Program-made: the position numbers and the translations under genes
Shown here: positions 8,416-47,992 of the stretch, piece after piece
Layout of the letters: the number at the start of each line of letters is the position of its first letter
Position numbering within the stretch: position 1 is the first letter of the stretch
Assembly (NCBI GenBank): GCA_964019425.1
Contig: OZ025835.1
Span: 62,001 to 126,000 of the forward strand
Length of the DNA stretch: 64,000 bases
From: Flectonema sp. DT1601
Taxonomy: Eukaryota; Euglenozoa; Diplonemea; Diplonemida; Diplonemidae
Reading direction: 5' to 3'
The notes under the pieces: model-generated
What the model was told of the DNA's origin: nothing
Database searches by the model: none
What the model saw: the letters and a program-made list of their open reading frames with translations, nothing else

Positions 8416-11400
8416 TCAGGTAGGAACTTGCGCGAGTAACTCTTCAGGCAGATCGAGCTTACGGGCTCCCATTTCACGAATAGTCGCAGCAGCACCAGAA
8501 GACAATAAATATTCCCATGTATCGGTGTTGGCTGCCAAACTTCCGATAGCAGCCGCTGCTCTCCATAAGGCGTCACTTGAAGGAGGAGATTGATGTAATA
8601 ATTTAACAAGAGGAGGAAGAATATCATATTTCAGTAACACACTTCTACTGTCAACTCGAGTTGCAAGATTTCTGATGGTTCCAGCAGCATGAGAAGCAGT
8701 CCTATTTGGAGGCCAGAGTAAACTAATTATTTGTTTAACTGCTCCATCATTCTCTAACACGAACCTGCGATGGGTCTGAACAGCACAAACCAAATTCCTA
8801 ATTGTCGCCAGAGATTCCTCAACAACTTTTTCATCAGAACACGACAGTTGAGAAATCAGTTCCTCGAGTATTGTATTGTCTTTTTCAACTTTACGATGTG
8901 CCAAATACTTTGTAGCCTTTCTAATCCCTTTCCTTACTCTCCCGTAATCTTCTTCATCACCAGTAGTAGTTTCTATTACCTTGTCATGCATCTGTTGCAC
9001 TGGTTCTGCCTTCCTTACTAACGGTGTGGCCCCAGCACTAACTAATGCTTTCGAACACTTAAAGTTCCCGTTACTAACTCCCCACTGGACAGGTGACATT
9101 AGAGAACCGTCTTTTTGATCTAAATAATTCGAAAAGGTTATCGGACTAAAAGTACTTGCAGCTAACTCAACTAACATTCGAATACAAGTAATACTGCCAC
9201 CACGAGAGGCGATGTGAAGGATCGTGCATCCATCAGCATCTGTCTCAAGTAATAGTGAACTAAGTGATTGAGGAGGTTGACTTCCTTCGTCTTGGTCTTC
9301 AGTACTATACCACCCGCTGTTAAGGATCTGTCGCAATGATTCCGCATCTCCTTTCCCAGCTGCGAGGTGTCCCAGGAGGGAAAATGACCGCAATTGTTCC
9401 AAACTGTAGAAACCTGATCCAATTATTTCAGAAAAGAGCTTCGGTCGACGGTAAGCAATGCAACAATGAAGCAATCCCCACTCTACTCTCTCTCCTGAAT
9501 GGGACGATACTTTTTGTTGTAGTAGTAGTCGTACGGAGTCTGCAGCATCAGAGTCTTTCCCGATGAGTGATTTCGTAACCACAAAGCTGATCGCATCTTC
9601 CAACTTGTCACACCTTGGAGCTGCGGGGATTATGTTGTGAAGAACTTTGTGATCATCCAGAGGCGTTACTTGTTGTGATATTAAATACTCTTCATAGTCA
9701 CATAAGACAGGTCTCGATATTAATTCACAAGGTGCGAACGGTCCCATCAGATCCTTCAGATTGCAGATCTGTTCGTCGCGATTCTCTTTGTCGATTAGCA
9801 TTCCTGCTATGCTTTTGAAGGCTCTCTCTTCACCTCCTTCACCAGCTGGTTTGTTGTCGGAGTTATACTTTCCCTGTGTTGTGTGATCTTCGATATATCT
9901 AACTGCTCGCAGTGCTGTTATCGAATCCCCACCAAGTGAGAAGAAATTGTCCTCAACTGTGATAACTCGTTCAGATATACTTAGAGCTGAAATCCAAGCA
10001 TTGCTAATAATTATTTGTAATCCAGTAGTAGGTAACTCTCCCACCACTGCTGAACCCCATTTAGAAGTGTGCAGGTCGGCTATTTGTGAATCTGAGATCT
10101 TTGATTGTGTTCCGAGTAGTTCTCCGAAAGAAGACGTCGCAACAAATGAAAACTGTACAGGGATAGCCTGCTGAATTAGAACAGTTGAGCATTGATATGA
10201 AATGAGATGAGATATGTGAGCCTGGGCATCAGGACTGAACTGATATTGAAAACATAAACAACAACAGAGAGTTTGAGACTCTTTAAGTAAAAAGCAGCGA
10301 ATATCCGTAAGTCCCAAGTGTTGTGCAATACCAGCTGAGATCTGATTTTCCGTAACCAACATGTCAACCAATACTCCGCGTAACTTTATTTTCGAATCTC
10401 GTCTACTCCCAGATATCATTACCAAGCCGTCTGATATAATCCCATAGTCACCAGTCAGAATCGGAGATGTGTACTTTCCGGTTATTTTTATTTCACCAGT
10501 TTCTGTAACTGTTACGTTGTAACTTCCCATCCCATTCCCTATTGGTATGTACCCGTTAAGGTAGTCTGAATTTTCAGACAGTTTGTTTCTAATGTCGTTG
10601 ATGACAACAGAGGATTGATATCCAACAGCTTCAGTCAGACCGAAAGTATTCCTAATTATTATTTTTGAATTACTCCATTCACTTGAATTAGATAACAACT
10701 CCCTCGGGAATTGTTCCCCTCCGAGACTGACACACTTCAGGTTCGGGTAACTCTCTGGACCAACACCCTCTGCTAATGATGAAATGAATATCTTCCAGTG
10801 AGTTGGAGTGCAGCAAATATGAGAAATCCGCATTTTACGAACTACTTCAGGAAGCTTTGAGGATGTTATTTCCGCTCTGGGGGGTACCACCAAACAGCTG
10901 CCAGCAAGTATTGCTGCGATTATATCCACGTGGCAAGGATCGAAAGTAAAATGTGATGCGAGTAAGATAACACTTTCGGGACTCAGGCATTCTTCAGATA
11001 CTTTACAGCTCGCGGATTCACAAATTTGAGCGTCTGTGACGGGAAGTACTTTTGGAAAACCAGTTGTGCCTGAAGTGGTTGCATAGTAGGATGGCCTTAC
11101 TTCTCTTCTGCTTTCATATTTATCACAATCACCGTGTGACAGTGTAATCTCTTGAGCTGTTGTAGCTATCTCTAATGTGCCTATGATGTGTGTGACGTTG
11201 CATTCTTTAATTAAGTAGCGAATCCTCTCTGCTGGCCACCTCCTGTCGAGTGTGACAAAAGGAACATTTAAGAAATAGCAACACAACATTGAGACCACCA
11301 ACTCAATCCCTTCCTCAACAATAATACCAACACAGTGTATCTCTGATATTGATAGTCGTCCCTCAGCTGCATCACTCGAAATGAAAGCTACTCCGCAAAC

Positions 11401-11508
11401 CTTCTCCAGTAGCTCGGAATACGAAACATGACTCTCTAATTCTCGTAAGGCAGTACGAGTTGGATATTTCACAGCAGCGGAGTGCAGTAGAGCTGCTACA
11501 TTGTTCAT
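8416..11508 (-). CDS. NRPS-like adenylation-carrier protein with ankyrin and armadillo repeats
   Basis: 1030 residues in one exon. Residues 1-470 form an acyl/aminoacyl adenylation domain: A3 loop YATTSGTTGFPK (142-153), A5 NTFGLTEA (287-294), A7 TGDYG (352-356) and A8-like GSRRDSKIKLRGV. Residues about 495-545 are a carrier domain with phosphopantetheine site FFSLGGDSITALR (Ser529). The region about 690-830 contains ankyrin-like repeats (DGCTILHIASRGGSITCIRML, PVQWGVSNGNFKCSKALV). Residues about 880-1020 form armadillo-like helices (SLATIRNLV, AAGTIRNLA, AAAAIGSLA). The A+T core resembles animal AASDH/ACSF4, whose C-terminus is a beta-propeller instead. The A10 lysine expected in a TS-x-GK context is not evident (TSSFGELLG). 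No condensation, reductase or thioesterase domain is present, so product release is unexplained. Substrate unknown. Confidence 0.85.
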   Translation of the reverse strand: MNNVAALLHSAAVKYPTRTALRELESHVSYSELLEKVCGVAFISSDAAEGRLSISEIHCVGIIVEEGIELVVSMLCCYFLNVPFVTLDRRWPAERIRYLIKECNVTHIIGTLEIATTAQEITLSHGDCDKYESRREVRPSYYATTSGTTGFPKVLPVTDAQICESASCKVSEECLSPESVILLASHFTFDPCHVDIIAAILAGSCLVVPPRAEITSSKLPEVVRKMRISHICCTPTHWKIFISSLAEGVGPESYPNLKCVSLGGEQFPRELLSNSSEWSNSKIIIRNTFGLTEAVGYQSSVVINDIRNKLSENSDYLNGYIPIGNGMGSYNVTVTETGEIKITGKYTSPILTGDYGIISDGLVMISGSRRDSKIKLRGVLVDMLVTENQISAGIAQHLGLTDIRCFLLKESQTLCCCLCFQYQFSPDAQAHISHLISYQCSTVLIQQAIPVQFSFVATSSFGELLGTQSKISDSQIADLHTSKWGSAVVGELPTTGLQIIISNAWISALSISERVITVEDNFFSLGGDSITALRAVRYIEDHTTQGKYNSDNKPAGEGGEERAFKSIAGMLIDKENRDEQICNLKDLMGPFAPCELISRPVLCDYEEYLISQQVTPLDDHKVLHNIIPAAPRCDKLEDAISFVVTKSLIGKDSDAADSVRLLLQQKVSSHSGERVEWGLLHCCIAYRRPKLFSEIIGSGFYSLEQLRSFSLLGHLAAGKGDAESLRQILNSGWYSTEDQDEGSQPPQSLSSLLLETDADGCTILHIASRGGSITCIRMLVELAASTFSPITFSNYLDQKDGSLMSPVQWGVSNGNFKCSKALVSAGATPLVRKAEPVQQMHDKVIETTTGDEEDYGRVRKGIRKATKYLAHRKVEKDNTILEELISQLSCSDEKVVEESLATIRNLVCAVQTHRRFVLENDGAVKQIISLLWPPNRTASHAAGTIRNLATRVDSRSVLLKYDILPPLVKLLHQSPPSSDALWRAAAAIGSLAANTDTWEYLLSSGAAATIREMGARKLDLPEELLAQVPT

Positions 11509-11930: not shown

Positions 11931-13929
11931 TTATGGAGTACATCTGTCCTGAACACGTGGGAACAGACACATCTCCCTAACGTGGTCGCAGTTGTTCTCA
12001 TCCGTGTTGTTGCAGAGCCACACGAGGAATCTCTCAAGACCCAAACCAAATCCACCGTGAGGAGTAGATCCGTACCTGTTGTTAGTTGTGAATTAGTTGT
12101 TGTTTTGTTGTAACAAACTCTTACTAAAATCAGAGAAGCAGTTACATCACTACAATACTTTATAAAGAATAATGTGGTTCATACTTTCTCTGGTCAGTGA
12201 ACCAGTAGTAAGGCTCAGGGTCAAGTCCCTCTCTCTTGTAACCAGACATCAATTCATCGAGGTCGTCCATTCTGTTTGTGTGGTATGGTTAGATAAAACA
12301 GTATATAATACATTAAGTGTTGATAGTGTAGTACTTGACAACACACCCTCCCCAGCTGTTCACAAAATGGAAACCAGCAGAAACAAGGAATTAAGTTACA
12401 TAAAAAAACAACAACACAAACCTCATCGACCCTCCGATAATTTCACCAATTCCAGGCATCAACAAGTCAACAGACTCAGTGAGGTCAGGGTTTCCTTCAA
12501 CTCTCTTCATGTAGAACGACTTCATTGAAGTTGGGAAGTTGATCATGAAAGTTGGCTCACCAATCTTAGCGATCATCTCACGTTCTGGACGGTCAGGAAT
12601 GTCATCCTCAGGTCCGAAGTGTTCCTTGGTGTCAACGTCCTGTTTTGGGATTTATTATAAACAGCACTAAAACACTCAAAACACCACAAACCAATTTCAA
12701 CAAAATATTAAATAACAAACCTTGTAAATGTTGTGCTGACGGCAGAACTTCACAGCGTCGGCGTGAGTGAGTCTGTTGAACGGTTTCTTTGGGATGTAAC
12801 ACTTCCTCCAGTGCTCACCTGAGTAGCCATCGCAAGGTTTTGGGTTCAGCCTGCGGATCTCTTCTCCACAGCTGTCCATCAAACGAGTCAAGACTCCGAT
12901 GACCAAGTCCTCAAGTCTGTCGAGAAGATCCTCAAACGTGATGAATGGATACTCTGCTTCAATGTGAGTGAATTCAGACAAATGTCTCTTCGTGTGAGTC
13001 TGCTCAGCTCTGTATGATGGAAGGATGCAGTAGCAATCACCTATCATTGGGATAGCAGTCTCCAAGTACAGTTGAGATGACTGAGTCAGGTATGCCTTCT
13101 GACCGTAGAAGTCGATGTTGAAGAGTGAACCACCACCTTCACACTGGGTCTGCACCATCGTTGGTGGCTGCACTTCCATACAACTCACATCGAAGAAGTG
13201 ATCTCTGAAGGCCTTCAGGGCATGGGAACGAACCTTCATCAGGGCAGCAGTCTTAGTACCTCTCAGCACCATGTGTCTCTGGTTGAGGAGAACGTTTGGG
13301 TTTGAGTCAGCGTTGATGACATTCTCAACTTCTGGGGTGCTGAGACCAGTGATTGCCCACTCTGAGACAGTTACTTCAAATGGAAGAACGTGTTTACTCT
13401 TCGCGGCGTTGACGTTGTGTACAGATGTCCCTCTGAACACGAGCGAAGTCTCTCTGGCAATCTTTGGAAGAGTCTTATCCCTAACAACACACTGAACGTA
13501 TGAAGAACCATCTCTGAGGATGATGAAGTGAAGTTTGCCCTGCGATCTGACGTTGTGGGCCCAACCTCTTACAATGATTTCCTCACCTTCGTGCTTTGGG
13601 ACGTCCGAGAGGTACACAGCGCGGTATCCCATACCGTCCTTAATGAGCTGCTTCTGGGCGTCGGTTTGTCCGGCCAGGGTAAATGCAACCTTCTCGTTTT
13701 TCACTGCAGCTGGAGGCTTCATCTTGGGCTTCTTCTCCTTTTTCTTTTTCTTCGTATTTGTTCCGATGAGGGGATTTATTTCATTACTCAAATCTTTCTT
13801 AACAACTCCACCGTCAGTCCACTTTAGAATCAGTCCTCGTAGATTACCAAGAAGTGTACTTCCATATCTCTTGTTTGATAAATGTAATGATTTAGTTGAT
13901 GCACTTCTGAGAGCGTATCTCGAAATCAT
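11931..13929 (-). CDS. Asparaginyl-tRNA synthetase, probable mitochondrial paralogue
   Basis: Four exons, 13929-12721, 12639-12422, 12271-12185 and 12075-11931, joined by GT-AG introns of 81, 150 and 109 bp with consistent phase, give 552 residues. Class II motifs are present: an OB-fold anticodon domain ([20 protein letters not shown]), motif 2 around [21 protein letters not shown], and motif 3 [14 protein letters not shown] in the last exon. The N-terminus ([20 protein letters not shown]) is Arg/Ser-rich and lacks acidic residues, as in mitochondrial presequences. It is followed by a remnant of the RII domain found whole in the neighbouring copy ([16 protein letters not shown]). The catalytic body is nearly identical to the copy at 14484-16827, introns included. 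I infer a duplicated cytosolic-type enzyme retargeted to mitochondria; targeting is untested. Confidence 0.88.
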
Positions 13930-14483: not shown

Positions 14484-16827
14484 CTACGGAGTACATCTGT
14501 CCTGAACACGTGGGAACAGACACATCTCCCTAACGTGGTCGCAGTTGTTCTCATCCGTGTTGTTGCAGAGCCACACGAGGAATCTCTCAAGACCCAAACC
14601 AAATCCACCGTGAGGAGTAGATCCATACCTGTTGTTAGTTGTGAATTAGTTGTTGTTTTGTTGTAACAAACTCTTACTAAAATCAGAGAAGCAGTTACAT
14701 CACTACAATACTTTATAAAGAATAATGTGGTTCATACTTTCTCTGGTCAGTGAACCAGTAGTAAGGCTCAGGGTCAAGTCCCTCTCTCTTGTAACCAGAC
14801 ATCAATTCATCGAGGTCGTCCATTCTGTTTGTGTGGTATGGTTAGATAAAACAGTATATAATACATTAAGTGTTGATAGTGTAGTACTTGACAACACACC
14901 CTCTCCAGCTGTTCACAAAATTGAAACCAGCAGAAACAAGGAATTAAGTTACATAAAAAAACAACAACACAAACCTCATCGACCCTCCGATAATTTCACC
15001 AATTCCAGGCATCAACAAGTCAACAGACTCAGTGAGGTCAGGGTTTCCTTCAACTCTCTTCATGTAGAACGACTTCATTGAAGTTGGGAAGTTGATCATG
15101 AAAGTTGGCTCACCAATCTTAGCGATCATCTCACGTTCTGGACGGTCAGGAATGTCATCCTCAGGTCCGAAGTGTTCCTTGGTGTCAACGTCCTGTTTTG
15201 GGATTTATTACAAACAGCACTAAAACACTCAAAACACCACAAACCAATTTCAACAAAATATTAAATAACAAACCTTGTAAATGTTGTGCTGACGGCAGAA
15301 CTTCACAGCGTCGGCGTGAGTGAGTCTGTTGAACGGCTTCTTTGGGATGTAACACTTCCTCCAGTGCTCACCTGAGTAGCCATCGCAAGGTTTTGGGTTC
15401 AGCCTGCGGATCTCTTCTCCACAGCTGTCCATCAAACGAGTCAAGACTCCGATGACCAAGTCCTCAAGTCTGTCGAGAAGATCCTCAAACGTGATGAATG
15501 GATACTCTGCTTCAATGTGAGTGAATTCAGACAAATGTCTCTTCGTGTGAGTCTGCTCAGCTCTGTATGATGGAAGGATGCAGTAGCAATCACCTATCAT
15601 TGGAATAGCAGTCTCCAAGTACAGTTGAGATGACTGAGTCAGGTATGCCTTCTGACCGTAGAAGTCGATGTTGAAGAGTGAACCACCACCTTCGCACTGA
15701 GTCTGCACCATCGTTGGTGGCTGCACTTCCATGCAGCTCACATCGAAGAAGTGATCTCTGAAGGCCTTCAGGGCATGGGAACGAACCTTCATCAGGGCAG
15801 CAGTCTTAGTACCTCTCAGCACCATGTGTCTCTGGTTGAGGAGAACATTTGGGTTTGAGTCAGCGTTGATGACATTCTCAACTTCTGGGGTACTGAGACC
15901 AGTGATTGCCCACTCTGAGACAGTTACTTCAAATGGAAGAACGTGTTTACTCTTCGCGGCGTTGACGTTGAAGATTGGCTTTCCTTTAAACACAAATGAG
16001 GTTTCTCTGGCAATCTCAGGAAGAGTCTTATCCCTAACAACACACTGAACGTATGAAGAACCATCTCTGAGGATGATGAAGTGAAGTTTGCCCTGCGATC
16101 TGACGTTGTGGGCCCAACCTCTTACAATGATTTCCTCACCTTCGTGCTTTGGGACGTCCGAGAGGTACACAGCGCGGTATCCCATACCGTCCTTAATGAG
16201 CTGCTTCTGGGCGTCGGTTTGTCCGGCCAGGGTAAATGCAACCTTTTCCTTCTTCACTGCGGCTGGAGCTTCTTTCTTTGACTTCTCAGCAGCCTTTTTT
16301 GGGGTTGCACCGATCTTTGTAAGGAAAGCATCCATTTGAGTGTCTAGTTCGGTTTTGACGGCTGCGCCGTTAGCCCACTTTAGATCTGGAAGTCTGCGGA
16401 GACCACCGAGGAACTGACCTCTGTTAAAAGAATAACCATCTGCGGTGATCTTTTCTTTTGATTCCTCAATCTTTGTTGAGATGAATCCAGCAATGTCAGC
16501 CGCGGAAATCTTAATGTCCGCACCACATTCCTTGTTAAAGTCTGCCTCTACGAAGTCACCTCCCTTGTTCAAGTATTTTACGGCGGCTTCGACCTGGCTG
16601 CCTTCGATAAGCCTTTCATCAATGATGTATTTACCAAGCATATCTCTACGGGATTCTGCCTGCATAGTTTTGTGCAGTAAGAGACCGATGTTCTTATCAC
16701 ACTTCTGAACATTTAAGGCGTCGAGGAATTCAATAAACTGAGCAGCCAGATCCTTACTCTTCAAGATGTTATCGATGTTCTTCTTTTCGAACCCAATTGC
16801 TGCGAAACGCGTCTCCATCTCACTCAT
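14484..16827 (-). CDS. NARS1: Asparaginyl-tRNA synthetase with GlnRS-type N-terminal domain
   Basis: Four exons, 16827-15274, 15192-14975, 14824-14738 and 14628-14484, encode 667 residues. Start at 16827 ([13 protein letters not shown]); the frame stays open upstream to 17070, but that part is not conserved-looking. Residues 1-190 match the two-part N-terminal domain (RI, RII) of eukaryotic glutaminyl-tRNA synthetases, an all-helical tRNA-binding appendage related to GatB/YqeY. The RII signature is [20 protein letters not shown] Lys/Ala/Glu linker follows, then the OB-fold anticodon domain and the class II core (motif 2 [15 protein letters not shown]; motif 3 GLGLER in exon 4). It charges tRNA-Asn in the cytosol. 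Its tandem partner at 11931-13929 lacks the appendage. Finding a GlnRS appendage on AsnRS is unusual to my knowledge. Confidence 0.92.
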
Positions 16828-17122
16828 AGTAATTATATAATGTCTGATTGGAAAGTAAATTAATTGGCTTACTTCATATAACGACAAAACATTCCACAAA
16901 TACAAACAATCAATAGAAGTGACGCTAACAAGGTGCGAGACAAAAGAAAGAATATTACAAACTAAATAGTTTTGCGTCACGGCAAAATTTGACCGCATCG
17001 ATAAGTTCTCTAAGCACTCGCATACTCGTAGAACGCTAACTGAGCGTCGAGAATGATTTCGTTTCTTCAATTTATTTATTAGAATCCACTAGCTACCGCA
17101 TTTTAGTGTTGCTAGTGGTTGA

Positions 17123-18238
17123 CTACCAGACAACTTCTTCAGTCTCAACTTCTTCAGTCTTTGGTCCGAGGAGGGCGTCAATCTGTTTGTTCATTTCATT
17201 TCTGACTGTTGCCGTGTCAGGGACCTTCAGAGCTTTACCACGTCGGATGCCTCCCAGAAACGCCCCTCTATTGAAGTCATGACGCTGAGTAAGAATCTTA
17301 CTTTCCGCGTTCTTAATTGCTTTCGCAACAGCAGCTGCGATCTCTGCCTGGGAGACGTCGCACTCGTTGCCAGATTCTTTTTTAACCAAATCCTTGTCAC
17401 CCTTTGCCAATGTCTTCAGGCATTTCATATCTTCTTCAGTCTCCGGTCCGAGGAGGGCGTCAATCTGTTTGTTCATTTCAGTTCTGACTGTTGCCGTGTC
17501 AGGGACCTGAAGTACTCGACCACGTCGGATACCTCCCAGAAACGCTCCTCTATTAAAGGAATGACGCTCGGCAATTATCTTGTCTTCCGCATTTCTGATT
17601 GCCTTCGAAACGGCTGCTGCAATCTGGTCTGCAGTAACCTCACTGAACTCATTATTGACGTCACTTTTCGCCATAGTCTTCAGGTATTTCATATCTTCTT
17701 CAGTCTCCGGTCCGAGGAGGGCGTCAATCTGTTTATTCATTTCATTTCTGACTGTTGCCGTGTCAGGGACTTGAAGTACTCGACCACGTCGGATACCTCC
17801 CAGAAACGCTCCTCTATTAAAGGCATAACGCTGAGCCAGAATTGTATTTTCGGCATTTCTGATTGCCTTCGAAACGGCTGCTGCAATCTGGTCTTCAGTA
17901 ACCTCACTACCTTCACTGAACTCATTATTGACGTCACTTTTCGCCATAGTCTTCAGGTATTTCATATCTTCTTCAGTCTCCGGTCCGAGGAGGGCGTCAA
18001 TCTGTTTGTTCATTTCAGTTCTGACTGTTGCCGTGTCAGGGACCTTCAGAACTTTACCACGTCGGATGCCTCCCAGAAACGCCCCTCTATTGAAGGCACG
18101 ACGCTGAGTAAGAATCTTACTTTCCGCGTTCTTAATTGCTTTCGCAACAGCGGCTGCGATCTCTGCCTGGGAGACCTCAGCCCCCTCGTTTTCATAACTC
18201 GCGGGGTGTTTGTCGTAGTGCTGCTCTTGTTTAATCAT
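17123..18238 (-). CDS. Tetra-RII protein: four tandem GlnRS N-terminal RII domains
   Basis: 371 residues made almost entirely of four RII-type repeats, at residues about 22-112, 113-200, 201-294 and 295-371. Each contains FNRGAFLGGIRRG, VPDTATVR and NKQIDALLGP. They align with the RII half of the GlnRS N-terminal domain and with the appendage of the adjacent AsnRS ([12 protein letters not shown]). There is no catalytic domain, signal peptide or membrane segment. Repeats 1 and 4 share VSQAEIAAAVAKAIKNAESK, while 2 and 3 share the AAAVSKAIRNAE type, an A-B-B-A pattern. RII domains increase tRNA affinity in GlnRS, so a free tetramer suggests a trans-acting tRNA-binding cofactor in the manner of yeast Arc1p. 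That role is inference. I know no described protein with this architecture. Confidence 0.87.
   Translation of the reverse strand: MIKQEQHYDKHPASYENEGAEVSQAEIAAAVAKAIKNAESKILTQRRAFNRGAFLGGIRRGKVLKVPDTATVRTEMNKQIDALLGPETEEDMKYLKTMAKSDVNNEFSEGSEVTEDQIAAAVSKAIRNAENTILAQRYAFNRGAFLGGIRRGRVLQVPDTATVRNEMNKQIDALLGPETEEDMKYLKTMAKSDVNNEFSEVTADQIAAAVSKAIRNAEDKIIAERHSFNRGAFLGGIRRGRVLQVPDTATVRTEMNKQIDALLGPETEEDMKCLKTLAKGDKDLVKKESGNECDVSQAEIAAAVAKAIKNAESKILTQRHDFNRGAFLGGIRRGKALKVPDTATVRNEMNKQIDALLGPKTEEVETEEVVW
17126..18175 (-). repeat. Four tandem about 270-bp coding repeats (RII modules)
   Basis: Units at about 17903-18175, 17639-17902, 17357-17638 and 17126-17356. They are nearly identical over stretches such as the region encoding PETEEDMKYLKTMAKSD, showing recent amplification or ongoing conversion. 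Confidence 0.9.
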
Positions 18239-18672
18239 TTCTTATAGAGTTGTGGTCTTTGATAAATAACATTAAAGAGTTATAAAAACAACTACTATTG
18301 ACTAACCCTTGCTTAGACGAGGATGATCTTATCCAAGATTGGGTAAGGAAATATTCACTTCTGTAATAAAAGAATGAGTGGTACAGTTCCAAAGATAAAG
18401 GGGAAAAGAAAATAAATTTAGAAAAGTTCTAAAGTACTACAACTTTGATACGAGATACGAGTTTGAAAAATAAGACAAAACGTTTATTACGATCGTCTTT
18501 TAGTCACTCTACTAGAATAGATAAACACGTTGTGTAATAAAACAAAAGTTACGATTTATTAAAACAACAACAACAACAAAACAAAACTAACAAACATACA
18601 AACAATATTATTGAAAAGATCCAATCAATGAAGCACAAGAACTTGTCATTCGCTGCGATATTCAAGAGATTA
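18239..18672. other. Intergenic, nothing recognised
   Basis: About 430 bp of AT-rich sequence with an AAC/CAA-rich stretch near 18560-18585. No gene. Confidence 0.6.
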
Positions 18673-19560
18673 CTATATCTTCTCTGGCAGGTCTTGTAAA
18701 CCCTTATGCGCAGGCATTTGACTGTAGCCGACTGGACCAAAACTATCGAGTGCCAGCACCTCAGCGCTGTAAACTTCAAATGAAGTTGGGGAGGCTCCTT
18801 TTCCCTTTACCGCGTAGTAACACAGACCGCAGCATCCAAACAAAATAAGTGCAGTGAGGAATCCAATTGAAGCGAATACTAATTTATCACTAGTAGAGGA
18901 ATCATCTGATATGACAACAACAACAGACGGTGATGGTGTTGAATTAGCTACTGGAGTGTCACTTGGTATCAGAGTCAGAGTAGATGTTTGTGGACTGTTG
19001 CTCGGTGGGACAGCAGTTGGAACTGCAGTTGGTCGGACTGGAGAATTCGTCAAAGGGATAGGCACTGCAGTCGGACTTCTTGTTGTTCCGGGTGGTTGGG
19101 CTGTTGGTATCGCTGTTGGAGAAGCTGTCGTTCCGGGTGGTCGTGCTGTTGGCTGTGCTGTTGGGGCTGCTGTTGTTCCTGGTGGCCGCGCTGTTGGTTG
19201 AGCTGTTGGCTGTGCTGTTGGAGAAGCTGTTGTTCCTGGTGGCCGTGCTGTTGGTTGAGCTGTTGGCTGTGCTGTTGGAGAAGCTGTTGTTCCGGGTGGC
19301 CGTGCAGTAGGCTGTGCTGTTGGGGCTGCTGTTGTTCCTGGTGGCCGTGCTGTTGGTTGAGCTGTTGGCTGTGCGGTTGGCATTGCTGTCGGAGTTGCTG
19401 TCACTCCAGGAGGCAGAGCTGTCGGAGCTGCAGTCGGCTGCGCAGTTGGCACTGTCGTCGGCACCGCTGTCGGCACAGCTGTCGGAACGGCAGTTGGTAC
19501 CGCCGTCGGCGGAGCTCCACCGACGGACATCAATACAACGACCAGCAGGAGTCCATTCAT
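18673..19560 (-). CDS. Mucin-like Pro/Thr-rich type I membrane protein
   Basis: 295 residues. The N-terminus (MNGLLLVVVLMSVGGAP) is a signal peptide. It is followed by about 170 residues of PTAxPT repeats with interspersed PPGTTA units, likely heavily O-glycosylated and extended. One membrane helix lies at about residues 226-248 (VFASIGFLTALILFGCCGLCYY), then a tail of about 45 residues with Tyr-containing motifs (EVYSAEV, VGYSQMP). The architecture suggests a cell-surface stalk or glycocalyx protein; similar PT repeats occur in many protists by convergence, so homology cannot be argued. A TCTTTTCAG acceptor-like site lies 18 nt upstream of the ATG. The repeat produces long meaningless open frames on the opposite strand. 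Confidence 0.8.
   Translation of the reverse strand: MNGLLLVVVLMSVGGAPPTAVPTAVPTAVPTAVPTTVPTAQPTAAPTALPPGVTATPTAMPTAQPTAQPTARPPGTTAAPTAQPTARPPGTTASPTAQPTAQPTARPPGTTASPTAQPTAQPTARPPGTTAAPTAQPTARPPGTTASPTAIPTAQPPGTTRSPTAVPIPLTNSPVRPTAVPTAVPPSNSPQTSTLTLIPSDTPVANSTPSPSVVVVISDDSSTSDKLVFASIGFLTALILFGCCGLCYYAVKGKGASPTSFEVYSAEVLALDSFGPVGYSQMPAHKGLQDLPEKI
18990..19515 (-). repeat. PTA/PPGTTA coding tandem repeats
   Basis: Degenerate repeats encoding PTAxPT and a larger unit of the type AQPTARPPGTTA. The GGTGGCCGTGCTGTTGGTTG-like blocks recur on the plus strand between about 19170 and 19370, indicating unequal-exchange expansion. Confidence 0.85.
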
Positions 19561-37606: not shown

Positions 37607-38516
37607 TCACAGACCAACAGTATCAGTTCCCAACGACAAGTAAAAGCGAACAGTATGATACTTAATTTGTCTCTGTGCTTCTAAGAAGGCTGCGAACAAC
37701 TCCGGTATTATAAAAAGCAAATGAACAATAGAAAGAGCTCTATCATGAGATTGACGAGGAAGACCCTTGTCAACCATATAAAATACAATTACTAAAGCTA
37801 AATTCATTACTGAAAATACAAAGAATCCGATTAAGTGTTGAACAGATGACGTTCTGTTTCCAATATATCCACAAAGGAGTCTTGCGAGTTCAAAGAGAGT
37901 CCAGAGACCCATAACAACACCGTACCATACTTGATGCTTCCACGCGACATCATATTTATTAGATTTCCATATGTACGCCACCCATGCTATCCCCGTGAAG
38001 CATATTGAGTACCACATGTTATAATATAAAAGCATCTGTAACCACATACTCTTTCCGTATACTTTCTGACGTTCGCTCTCATCTGCCTTACCACCGTCCC
38101 GAGTAGTACCCCATGTCTTAGTTCCAATTGTTCTCGATAATACTCCTGTTCCCCCTTTCATTGTAGCCCTAAGGCGACCAATCTGCTGTCCCTGATGCAT
38201 TGTTGGTGGGGAACTTGGTGGAGAACCTTAGAGAAAATAATAATAATTTGTACCATATCATCATAGTAGTAGTAGTTTGCAGAAGACTCAAACAAGCATT
38301 TCTCAGGTGACATGTTGTGTTATCTGTTTTTTAAGAATCTAAGAACACCAGTCTTACACAAATATCAAATCACAATCGAGAGAGACCCGGGTGAGAGGCA
38401 TCAGTTGATAAGGAGAGTCCCGCTAGCGCAACCACTTTAGGCCGCAAGAAGGACGGTGGGGAGGTGGAGAGTGCGGGCTCGGGAGTTGCGTTCCGATATT
38501 TTTCTTCATATTCCAT
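37607..38516 (-). CDS. TMEM17: TMEM17-type ciliary transition-zone membrane protein
   Basis: The main exon (38226-37607) encodes four membrane helices in the Transmemb_17 pattern: WLQMLLYYNMWYSICF, then LFELARLLCGYIGNRTSSVQ, GFFVFSVMNLALVIVFYMV and HLLFIIPELFAAFLEAQRQ. The xxRLLCGYxGN segment between helices 2 and 3 is typical of TMEM17/TMEM216. These proteins are part of the MKS complex at the ciliary gate. The frame stays open upstream of its first Met (38200) to a TCTCTAAG acceptor at 38227. A candidate first exon, 38516-38387, starts MEYEEKYRN and ends in phase at a weak GT donor (GTCTCT), giving a continuous Pro/Ser-rich N-terminus. The family call is fairly firm; the first exon is tentative. 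Confidence 0.75.
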
Positions 38517-41500
38517 ATTACTGTTTTCATTATTGGCATTGTTTGTTATTGTTGTGGCTGTAAGCCGACAAGCCTTCTCCTTTATGTAATTATTCTGTTT
38601 ACTCTTTACGATGGTAATCACAGTTCTTGCTGTTATATCTGCGATCTAAATAAAGAGTTCAGAAAATTCGAAAAAAAAAAAGAAAAATACAAAACGGTTG
38701 CTACAGACAGAGCATAAGGTACCTTCTAGGTCAGAGTTTTTATGTTTTTAACTTTATTTTCCATTGCTGGAATTATCTACCTGCCAGTGTCGGAACACGA
38801 GGGGTATAAAAATAAAGAATAAATGTGGTTTCAAGTTGTAAGTCTTCCCTGAGGCACAATGAACGTAACTCGACTGTTGTTAAGAAGAATCGACTTAGAT
38901 TTCTTCTTTCACGCAGGACGCATTATTTGAAAATTTTGATCTCTCCGTTTTTTTTTTTTTTTTTTTTTTTTTTTTGAAAAAAAGAAATTCCTCTCAGCGG
39001 GAAGGATTTCGTACTACTTGTAGAAAATGTTGTTGATTACGAAAAGGAAAAAAATAAAATATGAAATGAAGTTTGAAAAAATGACAATTGGGAACCAGAC
39101 CAAAAGACGACACTAGCACTGGTAACCAAAGATGCGAGTATAAAGTTATGGCTGTAGAAAAAAAAGAAACGGGGAAAACGGAACAAAAGAACTACACGAG
39201 TTAGCTGTCATGGAAGACATCATCGCTAACTAAAATGGTCGTGTAGCTCGAGGTCAAGAACCTAAAGTCCTGTAGTGCAACTAATCAATTGTGTGGCTGC
39301 TGTATAGAGTCCGTAAATTGTAGTTCTTTTGTTTAAGGTTGGTTGAATGGTAAAAACATGTGACTTGCTGAGATCACTAAAGGAATTGTAAAAACAAAAA
39401 TTGGGAAAAAGAGAGTGACTTGACAGCATTAGCCAACCACAGATGAATCTCATAAGGCCACCAGTCGGGTCTGTGAGACTCATGGAGCAGAATAAGAAAT
39501 AGACAACAGAGGTCAATACCTCTACAAGTATTTCAGGAGAACGAAAGGGCATAGGAACAAGAGGAGATAGTTGTAATTTATTCATCTTCTTGTCGCACTA
39601 CGGCTTGTAAAGTGATAAGGAAAATACAACGATAAAAAAAATAAGAGAAGAAGAGAAAAAAGAAAGGAACACATGGGGATTGCGACATCTGTTAGAGTGA
39701 GGCTTTACTGATGCAACCTGGTTTACCTTAATGAGTAACAGGCAATGGATCATTTATGCACGTCCTCTGTAGACCGAATACAGGTTCGGAAATACAGTTG
39801 CCATCGGGGGGAATAAAAAAAAACAGGAGACAAAAACAGTGTTGCTATACTAATCAATCATAATAATTTATCAGGTAGAAGTCCGTACTAAAACAGAGAT
39901 AACAAACGTAACTGTTCCAGAGAATTGACCAAGGACTCAGCAAAGGGACGTAACCCGCTTGGCGGGGGACAACTCAAATTTACGTATTGTGTGGAAAAAG
40001 ATAACTCGCAATCTGCGCTGGATGGGGGAGGAGAAAACAACTTTCTACATAAAAATAACTCGCAGGATTTTGGTTGCTGTACCACATTGGGAAGGTGGTC
40101 TGCATGATTTCTTGTTAGTAATGGTTACATCAGGTTGTGCTATATATCCAGGCAAGGCAGCATACATTAAACCGCGCGAACAAAGTAATCGCGGTTTGAC
40201 TCTGGGAGGTAACTATGAGTAAATTAGGAATTAGGGATGGTGTGTATATTTATGTATCTTTTTCTTTTTTCCCCGCATCAAGAATCAATAAAGTAAAACA
40301 GAGAATCCATTTTTAAAAGCAGAATAAAAATCGTAACATTTGCACTACCCAAAAAACAAGATCATCCTTTTTGCCACGAAACGACATTGCCAAAGCTTCG
40401 CATCGTCAACATGTCAAGCGATTTAAGAGTTTTAAAAAAACATAAAAAGTAACCGTGTTGTTAAACACGTTTTTAAAACTATCAAATATAGATTGGCTCT
40501 CACTTGGAAATTGATCAACGAGTTGTACATTGACAGCTATTCCTAGAACGCTTCAATCATTAAAATAAAATTAAAAAAAATACTGAAACGGATAGCCAGT
40601 GCTGTTAAACACGATAGAACTCTTCATGAGCAACCGCTAGGCATGTCATGGAATCAAAGGAAGGATAATACAAACATGATCCTATTATTCCACATACAGA
40701 TGGAATTATTTATTAATGATCTTGAAAGGCAGAGAAAAAATACTTTTTATCTACACAAAGAAGTCTGGATAGTAGTTCTCTAATAAATCCTCACACGGAA
40801 TACAATAATTGTGAGACTTTCATTGGTAAGAAACTTGTTCGCATTCCGTCGGACACTCGTTCATACAAGCAGCAAAAAGTCATCGGGGTTTTTGGGAGTA
40901 GCTTTCTTAGGAAAGCACTGTTCACAGCGTTGAAATGCTTAAAAGGAAAAGATTAATTTTTATCAATCATTTCCCTCAAACAGTTTACTCCATTGTGGGA
41001 GTCACGTTCTTGATTCACTAATAGAACGCCTAAGACTTTTACGGCGGGTGCACAGATGAGGTTCCAACAGATGACAGGTACCAGAGGCACATTGACCTCG
41101 CAGTTTGGGTACTAAATAATGGACAAAGTTAAGAACTTTAATCCCATCATGGGGTGATCACTTGATATTATGATTAAATATAAGGGGGGGGAACATAAAA
41201 AAGAGGTTAAAACAATTTTTAAAAAAAAAAAAAAAAAAAAAGATTTTTTCCCGATGACCGTGTCAAAAAGCTGAAGACACTCTTCAACATATGCTTTGTT
41301 GCATGCGATTAGATTTTCTAGCTCATCTGACAACGAGAGTATAAAACATGAAAATAAAAACTGCGAACTGAACCATGTAATCAACTAACAAGCTCAGTAC
41401 GCCGCAAGTTCTGGTTAACATACTCGTTTTTAAATCAAACAGTCTATGTTCCCTAAAACAACCAACAAGGGAGTTAATGTATTTTAGATACAAAAAACTG

Positions 41501-44500
41501 ATTGTATTGCACCAAACAACATTGGTGAAAAAATAGGTATGAAATTTGTAAGCAACAATTTTAGGTTGTTTTTAGGTTTTTTTTTCGAAAATGCTAACAC
41601 AGTTGAAAAAGAGAGTCTTTAGAATACAAGAGACAAAAAAAATAATAAAAGCAACAAAAAATATATAAATAAAATAACAAAAATACGAAACATAAAAAGA
41701 AATTCCATTTTGGGAATCGGAATTCACCAAGAAAGAATGAGTGAGTTAGGAAGAAGACATTTCATCTTCATTTTTCGAAGTTGCGTGTGCACATGCGTGT
41801 GTATGCCAGTGCCGTACACAGTGCCAAATACGCGTCTAAGAAGAAAATGGTGCAAGAACGCTTCATAGTCTGGAACTCAACTCCTCTAAAAGATCGAGAT
41901 CTCATAAAACTAAATTAAATCACCTTATCTTTTTTTATTGCAATAGTTCAAAACCCCCGAATAAAGGAGTAAAACTTCTCACAGCAAAGTTAGTTCACAC
42001 AACCAAGCAAGCTTACAACAGGGAAAGAGTGATCAAATAATTTATCGTTGCATTTTCTTTTTCTCCCTCCGTTTCATTTGCTTATTCTTATGCAAAACAT
42101 TTACGCTGAATATAGTCTTGTTGAACTGACAGTTGACTAAAAGAGTATCTACTTTGCTACTGTGTCGGAGAGGAGAGAAAACACAGTGTAAAAATATACG
42201 TTTGAAGTTTGAAGTTGTTGTTGATTATTTTCCTCACTGTTTTTACTTTTGGTTTCATAAAAAAAACAGAATTGTGAACGGTTCTCTAACACGTTTCATT
42301 TGGGTTTCAAATGTTCACAAAACCTTTTTTTTTTCTTTTTTTTTTTCTTGTTTCTCATCAGGTGCTTTAATTGGTTGGATTTTTAATTTCCTTCAAATAT
42401 AGAATCAATAAAAGGAAAATAACATGAAGAAAAAAAAAAGGAAAAAAAAGAAACCTGAAAAAAAAATAATAAATATTCGCAATACATTTAAGAATACAAA
42501 ATGAGGAACGAATACAAGTCACCTGTTGTTTAAAACTGTATTGGGCTATGCTTAATTTCGTTCATTTCTTTCAACAAATAATCAATAAAATGCATAACAA
42601 TAGCGGCACAAAGCAAAAACAAGATTCTACGAAGAAAATAATAATAATAAAAAAAATAAAATAAAAGAGATTTGTGTTTAAATTAGGCGCGAAGGCGGTG
42701 GAAACTCACGCGATAATTCGGATATTCTTGTACAACTAACGAATTTTCGCATTGAAACAAAAAAAAAAAAAACTAACTTATCAAACACGCACGAGAAGAT
42801 ATTTCCACCTGTTGACTTTTACTGCGGCTGACGGACAAGCAAAAAATACTTTTTTGTCCGAGTAAATAGCCTCCACAACATGCATAAGTGTAATAAATAT
42901 TTCAAAGAATAGAAGCATACGTAAACAGTTTGTCGTTCTCTAAGAACCACTGACTACTATTGGTAATTATTATTCGAAAATGAAAAATCGATAAGAGAGA
43001 TACAACTGGAAAGACAGAATTGGGTTTGAAAAGTTGGTAGACCGGAAGAGAAAGCTGTAAAGTTATCCTTTACAACTAACAGCTAACAGAGAATCCCACA
43101 CAGAGATGCTGAAGGCAGTTAATCAAAACCGGATCATCAAACAGGTGGGTTAGAATAAGTTACTCAAAGAAACCAACTAAAGAATTCAACCTAAAGCTTG
43201 CAATCTCAAAGCATAGACTTGTCTGCCTTACTTAAGGCCTTGAGCGCTGATTATGTTGGCATTCAACCAATCATCAAGCAGGCAACGGTAGGCGAATAGG
43301 AAAGAAATAGGACGATTATAAGACTACCAAAAAAAAATAATAGGACCAAATCAACATCACAAAGGAAGAGAGCGGGGGAAAAATCGTTTTGATTTAGCAA
43401 ACTTAATTAAATACAACTGTATTTACATCACGACAACATTAAAAAAAAAAACGATAATTCAACTATCTGTCAAAAGATACAGTGATTCTCAACTTAGCCT
43501 TTTGAAGTGACTATCAGGCCTCAAGAGTAATCCACATATCTCTTGTAGTGTAGAAGCGAGTCAGTCAACTTGAGACTGAATCACTAAGAAGGAAAAAAAG
43601 AAAGAGGAAGATAAATAAAACTGTAATATGATTAGAGATTTATTTATGCGACTTGCAACAAATTAAAATGACTAACTTGGACCAGGTTGCAAACAGAACA
43701 AGAAGTTGTGTATATTTGTGGTAATCAAACAATTAATACTCATTGAGCTGAGATATAGTCATCAAACAGGATATCTTGTTTGTTTGTAGAAAAAGTCGAA
43801 ATATAAACCAGATTCATCAATAAATGACTTAGAATTACATACTAAACAGAGACGATTGAAAACTTTCTCCAAAAGGGAAAAACACACTCGCATTGCGGGT
43901 TTTTAAGAAAAAATCTCGGAAGTAGAGGTAAGGGATGCCGCGCAAGTCTTATTCCCCTGTCCAAGATTTATGTTTTTTTTTTTTTCCTCCCCCCTAACTA
44001 AACAGTACTGTCTGAAAGATGCTAAGATTCAGCTTCCGACTCCAATTTTGTGATTCAGCTCATTGACATTGCCCAAAAGCAGAGCAATTATCTCGCAACG
44101 GTATTTATAAACAAAAATAGGAAAGAGATCGACCTGTCAGGATCACTGAAGCATAGTTACTAACATGCTGAACAGATTATTTATCACACATAACGTAATA
44201 ATCTCATCCACTACAAAGATAGTCTCGCACTATGATTTTTTCAGTTTAAAATTTTGTATTCGTAATAAAAGTTGCGTACGAATACATTCAACAAAATTAA
44301 CTTTCGAGTCATAGTTGTTAATCAAAACTAAATGAAAAAGGTGATTCCATGTTATAATTGGAATAAACGACTTCATCCTTTTAGTAGTGGCAATACAATA
44401 CAATAATAACATAAAATAAAAATTAAACCGTTTTATTATTTTTTTACTTTCTTCGGATACGGACGCACGTAGCTGCCAACAGCCATCAAGCTTGTTGACC

Positions 44501-44621
44501 ACATCGATACTAGGCAGCAGGTGCGTGAATCACCTACTACCGTGGATAGAAAAGAATTGTGTGGAATGTGGTAAAGGATAATGAAGGAAGAGATAAAGAC
44601 TGACAAAAAAAAAAAAAAAAA

Positions 44622-44653
44622 AAGAGAAGAGAAGAGAAGAGAAGAGAAGAAGA
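44622..44653. repeat. AGAGA/GAAGA pentamer microsatellite
   Basis: About six AAGAG-type units directly after an A tract. A simple repeat without coding context. Confidence 0.85.
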
Positions 44654-46046
44654 AACCATCGCTAAGTACCTCACCAACATAATTGGTGAGACTGTAACCT
44701 GGCAGTAGCTGATGTCCAAAAGGATAACATAGTAAAGAGAAGAAAAGGTTTTTAAGTGTGCGAAGGAGACCACCAATTTTTACAAATCCCCCCCCCAAAA
44801 AAAAAAGGAGGTCAAAAATTGAAGTAAGATCATAAAACGAAATACCCATCAGAACAACACGTTAAAACAAGTAGAGAAAAAAAAAAAAAAAAAAAAAAAA
44901 AAAGAATAACTGTGTGAAATAAAATCAATCAGTGAGGGTAAAGAAAGATCCCTATCCTCATTTTTAAAAAGTTAGCAATTTTTCCTCAGAGTTAGGTGCA
45001 ATACAACGTGACAACATGTGATAAAAAAAAAAAAAAAAAAAAACAGATTCCCTAAACCTGTTCATGCATACAAATTCACGTTCACAGCTACTTGTTTCTT
45101 GAGGAATACAAAAGACTTCTTGTGCCGTTGTGATGTAACAAGGCACATAATCTCCTTTTATAAAGTTGGCCAAAAAAAATTGTAGAAAAAAGACAGGGGA
45201 AAAACCGACAAGTAATAGAAAAGCAAAAAAAAAAAAAAAAAGAAAAAACGGTTAATTTTTTTCTTAGGTTTATTACTTCAACACCAAAAAAAAAAAAAAA
45301 AAAATAATACATCATTAGAGGTAACATTATTTTTGGTTGTTGTGAGCTAGAGTTTACCCTCCGTTGTTTGGGGGGAAAAGAAAAATAGACTTAAAAAGAA
45401 AAAAAAGTGCGCCGTTTTTATTAATTTGAAATAACAATAATGAAGACGACCAACTAGAATTTTTTCTTTTTTAAATGTGCTTGAGAGGTCAATTGATTAG
45501 AATAATACTGCTGTGGGATACCTTGCGTACACTATGCTGCACGCTCGCAGGTCTATCCCAGACTTACTTCGTAGCGTTGCTGTAGTCAGCTGCAAGTCCG
45601 AAACAAAAAACGATAATTCAACATAGAAAAGGGAAATTTAAAAAACCGTATTCGGTGGCCAGTGAGGGGTAAGACCACAGCTGGCAGTCATCTACTAAAT
45701 TTCCCCACAAAATTACAAAAAAAAAAAAAAAAAAAAAAAGACTTTAACTTAAACTATACAGAAAATAGTAAAAAACACTTGTTGATGTTTTGTTTGTGCA
45801 CGAAACCGTGAACCGACTTAAACTGATAAAGATAAAGGAGGTTTACGTGTGCTGCCCAACATTGATTTTCGCTTACAATAGTTGTTAAAATGCAAGAAGA
45901 AAAAAAAAAAGAATAGGCCAACTCCACTTTTTATTTGTTTTACTCAACGTTTTTGTTTTGTTTGTGCGCAACCTGGAACAAAATCCTAATAAAGGAATAG
46001 GTTACGCTGCCACAATTCTCTTTCTACCGAACAATGGGGGTTTGTA

Positions 46047-46080
<34 letters not shown>

Positions 46081-46842
46081 GCACGAAAACTAAGCCAACA
46101 ACATCAAAGAATAGAACATGGATTGCAATACTAAATGGAATCAAAATCCAAGAAGTAATGGGTGGTTACATTCTTTAAATGAATTGCCTAGTTAGTTTAA
46201 AAATAAAAAGTACTTTTGAATTTGTGTTTTTTTTTTTTGTAGAAAGTTTTATGTTTACTTAAAAAATATTTGTATTTTTTTTTTTTTTTGTTTTTTTTTT
46301 TTGTCTCCTCCCTTTTCGATCTACCATCGCTGAAGCGACGGGACAACGGATGAATATAAATTGAAAAAAATAAACAGAAAAACCCGTTTTGGAGAGAAAT
46401 CCAGCAACCCAAAAATAGGGAACGGGGTAACATAATAAAAAAACATTACCCGAACACATATTTAACGTCTTAATATTTTGCAACAGGGACAACAATGACA
46501 CAACTAAATTTTGTACCTTTACCTTCACCATTAAAATTTTTGTTTTGTTTTTACTTTCTTTTTTCATCTCCCCCCCGCCTTCAACCATTCTGTTTAGACA
46601 ACAAAAAATAAATTAGAAAAGGGCTAAGCATATCAGTTAGGTACGTAACGTAGATGGATAAAAGAAAACTTTCTATTCCCCCAGAACAACTCCTTTTTTA
46701 AATAAAGAAAAACTATTGTAAATAATAACCCTTTTTATTTTTTTTCGCAGGAGCGAACTGGTCAAAAAAAATAAAAAAATAATCGCACAAAACCGTAATA
46801 TTGACTACGGAGGCTGTTTTAAAAAAAGAGGGGAGGGCACTT

Positions 46843-46877
46843 CTTGTTCCGCCACTAAGATATAGTGGCGGTACAAG
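46843..46877. repeat. GC-rich 15-bp inverted repeat (hairpin)
   Basis: The arms CTTGTTCCGCCACTA (46843-46857) and TAGTGGCGGTACAAG (46863-46877) pair at 14 of 15 positions around an AGATA loop. Its GC-rich core stands out in the surrounding AT-rich spacer, so it is unlikely to be compositional noise. It is a candidate structured RNA, processing signal or protein-binding palindrome. Confidence 0.75.
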
Positions 46878-47636
46878 TACGAAAGGAAGGATGTTATTTT
46901 TATTTCTTTGTCTTGTTGGGGCCTCTTTTGATATGGGGGAGTTCAAAAAAAGCGAGACAAAAAAAATATCGGAGAAGCAGTAGGGGGGTTGTTACGAACC
47001 TAACGACACAACTTGTACATAATGGTATGGATATATAAAAAGAACAAAACCAAATAAAATAGTTTTTTTTTTTTTTTTTTTTTCGGTTCTCCCTCTAACT
47101 TATCTTTCACTTTCCGCTTCATCAATCATGAGGTATGACGCAGCAGGGAGAGCAACAGTGAATAAATAAGTAAATAAATAAAAAATAATAAAATATTGGG
47201 AAGAAAAAAGGAAACTTTCACTGGGAACACTGCTCAGGGAAAGCAGCATGTTATATATACCAGGAGGGTGCTTAAAATAACATACAAAACGGAAGAGGGA
47301 AGAGAACGATTTTTTTTTTCTTATTTTTTTCTTTTCTTCTTCTCCTAAGTTTCTAGTATTGTAAATCGTATTCGTGTTTAGCACCTCACCTATGAAGGTT
47401 CATAATTGTTTTTTTTTTTTTTTTTTTTTTTCCTCACTTAGAGGATAGGAAAGAAGCGTTGAAAAAGACAAAATAAAAGGAAACGAATAAATATGAAAAA
47501 AATCAGAAGTAAAAAATAGGTAAAAATAGATGTAAATAACCCGAAGTAACAACAAAGTGGAGAAAGTTTTTTTCTTTTCTTGTAGCTACATGTCAATTGC
47601 TCCAAAATAATAATAAAGATATTTTTTATTTTTTTT

Positions 47637-47658
47637 GTTTGTTTGTTTGTTTGTTTTC
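47637..47658. repeat. (TTTG)n microsatellite
   Basis: Five to six tandem TTTG units in gene-free DNA. Confidence 0.85.
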
Positions 47659-47992
47659 AAAAGTGTTCGTAATATTTTCTACACAGTTGGTGTTGTTGTT
47701 GCCGTTGTTTTTTGTTTTTTGACTCTCTTTATTTCACTCATAACCAATTAATGGACACGCGGCAATCTTTTTTTTTTGTTATTGTTTTCCTTATAACGTT
47801 CATTTAATTACGCCGAACTGGATATATGTCTACCATTACGACTCGCCTTCTCTCAAGCAATCAACAGATATTGTTTCTTAAGACCTGAATATGGGAGGTT
47901 TTATTTCTTTCTTTCTTTCCTTTCTTTTCTTTTTTTTTTTATATTCCACATGCTAGAGAATTCTCCCAAACGATGTGGTAATAATAAGCTCA

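Follow-up and report, generated by a model that had tools for sequence, protein, structure and literature searches.

A stand-alone protein of four GlnRS-type N-terminal modules beside AsnRS in the diplonemid Flectonema sp. DT1601

Introduction

Domains appended to aminoacyl-tRNA synthetases pass between enzymes, and intermediates of such transfers are rare. Here, we ask what one locus of the diplonemid Flectonema sp. DT1601 reveals about such a transfer. In a 64,000-nucleotide stretch of its genome (contig OZ025835.1, positions 62,001 to 126,000, forward strand; hereafter the window), an open reading frame (ORF) encodes a protein built of four copies of a module of the GlnRS N-terminal domain (NTD), directly upstream of AsnRS. 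The locus thus holds three states side by side, i.e., an AsnRS with the NTD, an AsnRS nearly without it, and a free, multiplied NTD module. What is this module, where does it come from, and what might such a protein do?

Results

The ORF at 17123-18238 lies on the minus strand and runs from ATG to TAG over 371 codons, with an in-frame TAA two codons 5' of the ATG; the plus-strand reading is another frame. Three lines of evidence show that it encodes four tandem modules, as a first-pass annotation of this DNA had proposed. First, the anchor FNRGAFLGGIRRG occurs in four copies, at residues 49, 140, 228 and 322 (spacing 91, 88 and 94 residues). Second, two Pfam families of the GlnRS NTD each match four stretches. 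Third, Tandem Repeats Finder independently reports 3.7 copies of a 273-bp unit at 17149-18162 (score 1276). The modules measure ~90 residues, and the rest of the protein is a start of ~20 residues, acidic linkers and a short tail (Table 1). Also as proposed, Pfam finds no catalytic domain.

The first-pass annotation had named the module RII of the GlnRS appendage and called for profile searches against the GlnRS and GatB/YqeY families. PF04558 (GlnRS R1) matches the protein at E = 2.2e-26 (93.2 bits, cut-off 28.6; best stretch, profile positions 89-153 of 162) and PF04557 (R2) at E = 1.9e-15 (57.9 bits, cut-off 25.1; best stretch, positions 1-49 of 94). Because the module spans the end of R1 and the start of R2, it corresponds to subdomain 2 of the NTD; the assignment to the GlnRS NTD is borne out, and the label RII alone is not. 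In the PDB, the protein matches the human GlnRS NTD (E = 2e-7, residues 106-198) and yeast GlnRS (1.4e-4 and 3.3e-4). In all four repeats, the PF04558 match starts at profile position 89 or later; subdomain 1 is missing, and the two-subdomain layout of the family is absent. The predicted structure has the helical fold of subdomain 2, with repeat 2 resembling residues 114-182 of human GlnRS; Foldseek alone gave no match at E ≤ 0.001. The full-length AlphaFold model is mostly of low confidence (mean predicted local distance difference test score 47.8, exceeding 70 mainly in repeat 2, the repeat that the alignment covers), and we therefore make no claim on the overall arrangement of the repeats. 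Altogether, each module is, by sequence and predicted fold class, the second, GatB-tail-like subdomain of the eukaryotic GlnRS NTD. Compared to that NTD (yeast, 3TL4; human, 4YE6), the protein lacks subdomain 1 and the synthetase, and it has four copies in which a WA pair has become VP.

This pair lies before the last helix of the NTD module. Among 38 relatives, W is present in 38, WA in 37, WAD in 28 and WADG in seven. All four repeats instead read VP (VPDT), keeping the D that follows. This loss is the strongest sequence argument for a change in the module.

PF02637, the GatB tail/YqeY family itself, is absent from the 25 Pfam rows listed for the protein, which extend to E = 0.61, and a profile search of the genome gave no match to it (control positive, 12/14). 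For Diplonema papillatum, one study likewise describes GatA as present, no GatB as retrieved, and one AsnRS (PMC12699882). No other family outscored the GlnRS profiles, all other matches lying far under the 93.2 bits of PF04558. DUF6979 passes its cut-off (32.4 against 27), but no stretch is significant alone; WH2 has one stretch, below its cut-off (21.2 against 23.1); and neither the 21 further Pfam rows nor the three from NCBIfam (best FimV_core, 36.1 against 43.45) contain a significant stretch. We attribute these lower matches to noise that adds up over the four repeats of the protein.

A search of the 89.5-Mb genome (92 contigs) with the protein scored 4 candidates and gave 2 matches, the protein itself and the AsnRS NTD. 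PF04558 likewise hits only AsnRS and the repeat-protein ORF, with no signal from 14 prokaryotic controls; PF04557 gave no genome-wide match, even at the known repeat-protein locus, and this result was left unused. The window AsnRS as query yielded 2377 protein matches, of which the best 120 are considered here. Among these, it matches P0003 (EukProt) at 74%, D. papillatum at 53% and, lower in the ranking, kinetoplastids. Together with the spliced-leader-like arrays and the one-strand gene order described below, these matches point to a euglenozoan, most likely diplonemid, genome. PF04558 is present on AsnRS of Diplonema, Trypanosoma, Leishmania, Perkinsela, Neobodo, Dictyostelium and Cavenderia and missing from some AsnRS of the same groups, e.g., Strigomonas, P0091 and P0012. 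By BLAST bits, each repeat is nearest to NTD subdomain 2 of the P0003 AsnRS (48-54% identity), followed by P0006 (43-52%); identity to the window AsnRS is 40-44%.

The tree comprised 42 rows and 73 columns, i.e., the four repeats, the window AsnRS, one human GlnRS and 36 of the 120 homologues (those matching a repeat by BLAST at E < 0.01, with P0004, the window's second AsnRS copy, dropped). The repeats form one clade (support 100/99.8) that groups with P0003, the window AsnRS and P0013 (84/96). Approximately unbiased (AU) tests rejected neither a grouping of the repeats with P0003 plus the window AsnRS (p = 0.434) nor one with just the window AsnRS (p = 0.245), and several branching orders inside this group appear compatible with them. 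The position of the clade within AsnRS NTDs points to one capture from a diplonemid-type AsnRS and later doublings. At the DNA level, repeats 1 and 4 are 96.5% identical, repeats 2 and 3 92%, and the two groups 80-82%. Thus, the tree indicates that the repeats descend from an AsnRS NTD and not directly from GlnRS. The source of the repeats lies among the NTD-bearing AsnRS (of trypanosomatids, diplonemids and dictyostelids), one of which sits at the same locus; unlike these enzymes, the repeats stand alone, with neither OB fold nor catalytic core.

That AsnRS bears this module, as the first-pass annotation had pointed out, holds here and is not new. It occurs in many euglenozoan and dictyostelid AsnRS, and an account of trypanosomatids places a GlnRS-like NTD on AsnRS and none on GlnRS (PMC8319005); an R1 domain on Leishmania major AsnRS is tabulated in another (PMC3532385).

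A genome search with PF00749 returned two enzymes, assigned by eye as GlnRS and GluRS. By Pfam, this GlnRS (L012:607-2796, minus strand, contig C4) has no R1/R2 NTD, and its upstream neighbour is another gene. Its first ~50 residues look GST_C/EF1B-type-like by eye, and its start is weakly Arc1p_N-like (E = 0.0069, below cut-off). GluRS (L013:1192-3663, plus strand, contig C16) has a C-terminal EMAPII-type tRNA-binding domain (PF01588, 6.8e-32). The only other PF01588 match of the genome, on contig C17, is an Arc1p/p43-like protein of 371 residues (L024:721-1836, plus strand) with a C-terminal EMAPII domain and, by eye, a GST-like N-terminal part.

The repeat protein is maintained by selection. 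Across the two repeat groups, the ratio of nonsynonymous to synonymous rates (dN/dS) is 0.18, 0.24, 0.17 and 0.25 at a dS of 0.52-0.67, and third codon positions account for 19-22 of 36-40 differences (P 0.0016-0.021, four non-independent pairs). An antisense ORF (17279-18247, plus strand, 322 residues) has a dN/dS of 0.87-1.75 between repeats in its own frame, with no sign of constraint; across all three antisense frames, values range from 0.22 to 3.50. The low cross-group dN/dS and the third-position bias, set against the antisense frame, indicate that the sense protein is constrained. Between the repeats and the window AsnRS NTD, dS reaches saturation, at 2.0-2.6 (not computable for one pair).

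These values bear on two alternatives. The word-based protein search found no orthologue, as would be expected of an unexpressed ORF or a pseudogene; with four repeats open across 1.1 kb, the third-position bias and a dN/dS of ~0.2, we regard this as highly improbable. Alternatively, the protein could be a young orphan, i.e., an AsnRS fragment amplified by unequal exchange and translated, with a new, unrelated role or as an AsnRS decoy. It is found in one genome only, and the locus shows active tandem duplication, with AsnRS copies that are 97.8% identical and the 273-bp array. However, the cross-group dS and dN/dS and the saturated distance to the AsnRS NTD describe a protein that is constrained and not brand new, making a young orphan a distinctly unlikely explanation.

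In the word-based protein search (8000 candidates of 204-649 residues sharing 5-residue words), the protein matched only itself. The reach of this search is limited, because the AsnRS NTD alone gave no match in it, though the search with full AsnRS gave many NTD-bearing AsnRS. In the viral contigs of IMG/VR and the prokaryotic ones of GTDB, 9 and 20 stretches fit a peptide pattern and none was confirmed, in scans that reach close relatives only. Searches of open-licence PMC papers turned up no protein of this architecture, where not found does not equal absent. These searches agree with the earlier remark that no described protein like it is known. As an architecture, the stand-alone tetra-repeat is new, known so far from one genome and in single copy there; the module itself is old.

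What has become of the NTD on AsnRS itself? The identity between the two AsnRS copies extends over 1.8 kb of DNA, introns included, to a sharp edge at 16286/13733, beyond which copy 2 keeps only a degenerate NTD subdomain 2. A mitochondrial presequence on copy 2 was considered and dropped, because an upstream exon would put the same residues in the degenerate subdomain 2 (by eye). Between the window AsnRS and P0003, identity is 89.8% in OB fold and core and 51.2% in the NTD; four other AsnRS pairs have smaller NTD/core gaps (77/76, 60/80, 56/69 and 54/66). Unique NTD changes number 25-35 in the window lineage against 6-15 in P0003, in eight of eight outgroups, and unique core changes 4-13 in both. 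Split by subdomain, the changes in NTD subdomain 1 are even with outgroup P0010, 13 to 13. By these comparisons, the window AsnRS NTD is unusually fast-diverged. An NTD that erodes in cis while a copy in trans is maintained would be compatible with a partial hand-over; a relaxed need for the NTD would give the same pattern.

Upstream of the conserved ATG, no stop codon interrupts the AsnRS frame for 81 codons (16828-17070, minus strand; in-frame ATG at 16998), for which base composition gives a chance of ~0.003, reckoned after the fact. This stretch may be an alternative N-terminal extension produced by alternative trans-splicing, as is reported for the AsnRS of Leishmania tarentolae (PMC8319005). 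The open stretch, with an acceptor-like site inside it by eye, also allows for an intron across the ~300-bp gap that would join the repeat-protein ORF, as a 5' exon, to AsnRS and give a longer isoform with five NTD modules. This is very unlikely: the ORF has its own ATG, stop and upstream acceptor-like site, P0003 begins at the AsnRS ATG position, the donor GTAGTC is by eye unlike the AsnRS intron donors, and the open stretch also fits a trans-spliced extension. Copy 1 also holds a putative internal exon of ~9 nt (14900-14908, minus strand) between two GT-AG introns, by eye.

Table 1. Features of the repeat protein and the neighbouring AsnRS copies (window positions)
Feature	Position	Strand	Basis and properties
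AsnRS copy 2, NTD a degenerate remnant of subdomain 2	11932..13929	-	Pfam, comparison with copy 1
AsnRS copy 1, with introns; full GlnRS-type NTD, OB fold, class II core	14484..16827	-	Pfam; boundaries by eye
NTD subdomain 2 of AsnRS copy 1	16321-16509	-	
Four-repeat protein of NTD-subdomain-2 modules, 371 residues	17123..18238	-	ORF calling, Pfam; overall isoelectric point (pI) 6.5
Repeat 1 core, residues 22-88	17975..18175	-	pI 10.6, charge +5.7
Repeat 2 core, residues 113-179	17702..17902	-	pI 9.7, charge +1.7; predicted fold like human GlnRS 114-182
Repeat 3 core, residues 201-267	17438..17638	-	pI 9.7, charge +1.8
Repeat 4 core, residues 295-361	17156..17356	-	pI 10.4, charge +5.8
Candidate acceptor-like site, pyrimidine-rich, ending TTATTACAG, ~120 nt 5' of ATG	18361..18390	-	By eye only

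Discussion

We infer that the repeat protein is expressed, binds tRNA and has a partner synthetase. By descent and charge, it may well be a multivalent RNA/tRNA-binding accessory protein, a reading to which we give slightly less than an even chance. In this lineage, the N-terminal tRNA-binding domain is missing from GlnRS and present on AsnRS. Subdomain 2 of an AsnRS NTD would have been duplicated upstream of AsnRS, with neither subdomain 1 nor the catalytic part, and amplified to four copies with acidic linkers between them. Each basic helical module would contact the D-loop side of tRNA, like the GatB tail, and the multivalent protein would raise the local tRNA concentration near a synthetase, either AsnRS with its eroding NTD or another. 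For GatB, a model places the YqeY and helical domains at the tRNA D-loop, and deletion of YqeY abolishes measurable activity (PMC4027206); for the GlnRS NTD, another paper gives a part in tRNA binding in yeast and stability of the multi-synthetase complex in humans (PMC8319005). A fuller scenario of two moves, from GlnRS to AsnRS and from AsnRS to a free, tetravalent tRNA cofactor that took over the task in trans and so let the covalent copies on both AsnRS genes decay, is more doubtful, and we consider it rather unlikely as a whole.

With Arc1p, p43 and MCP2, the repeat protein would share only the logic of a non-catalytic tRNA-binding protein serving synthetases (PMC4394549). It differs from them in that its Pfam rows contain neither EMAPII (PF01588) nor GST-like domains, and the genome has a separate Arc1p-like protein. 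If the repeat protein does bind tRNA and aid AsnRS, it would be a natural test of the NTD working in trans and a second, unrelated (non-OB-fold) route to an Arc1p-like cofactor.

Several observations weigh against an accessory tRNA-binding role. First, the loss of the WA pair may have altered an ancestral contact or packing. Second, the repeat cores are basic (pI 9.7-10.6) while the protein as a whole is slightly acidic, and the charge of repeats 2 and 3 does not exceed that of the D. papillatum AsnRS segment (+2.8). Third, dN/dS within the group of repeats 1 and 4 is 0.82 (7 changes), against 0.36 for the other pair. Fourth, the contrast between NTD and core rates is significant (Fisher) with only three of the eight outgroups. 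Fifth, no relative in another species was found among the word-sharing candidates, and there is thus no evolutionary proof of function. Sixth, an Arc1p/p43-like EMAPII protein and an EMAPII-tailed GluRS are already in the genome. Seventh, in Trypanosoma brucei, AsnRS was not found in the multi-aminoacyl-tRNA-synthetase (MARS) complex despite its NTD (PMC8319005).

Finally, the first-pass annotation took the adjacency to AsnRS as suggesting a tRNA-binding cofactor that acts in trans. The adjacency is real: the downstream neighbour on this strand, starting after ~300 bp, is the AsnRS with the whole NTD (PF04558, 1.5e-32). However, 25 of the 27 ORFs >150 residues in the window are on the minus strand, both plus-strand ones being antisense to repetitive genes, and the genome has spliced-leader-like arrays. 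The spliced-leader 3' end has 691 genome matches at ≤1 mismatch, and the same pattern reversed has 0. Local duplication accounts for the neighbourhood; the position of the protein reflects its origin, not a partnership.

The main rival explanation is a protein-protein scaffold. The repeats would retain the part that the GlnRS NTD plays in assembly and would hold synthetases or other factors together, but would not bind tRNA. A layout of four copies and acidic linkers would suit such a role, the conserved WA pair is gone from the repeats, and other members of the human complex depend on the GlnRS NTD for their stability (PMC8319005). Conversely, the cores have kept a basic character, which is strong in repeats 1 and 4, and an Arc1p/p43-like protein is already present. 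We consider a scaffold unlikely, though a serious competitor to an RNA/tRNA-binding accessory protein.

Other features of the locus

The candidate acceptor-like site 5' of the repeat-protein ATG is possibly its spliced-leader addition site. Among the spliced-leader matches listed, most lie inside 610- and 623-bp tandem arrays (C16:1432464-1446810 and C20:1248669-1318624; units 623 bp and 610 bp), and those on C20 run in both orientations. Rfam at gathering scores found nothing in the window. Directly upstream of the repeat protein, 18673-19560 (minus strand) encodes a PT-repeat protein (PF04886), possibly a surface protein, whose C-terminal part includes a hydrophobic stretch by eye. Amid the dense one-strand gene array, ~10 kb of mostly low GC content (38200-47990) has no ORF >150 residues. 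At 8416-11508 (minus strand), a protein of 1030 residues combines an AMP-binding adenylation domain, a phosphopantetheine site, and ankyrin and armadillo repeats.
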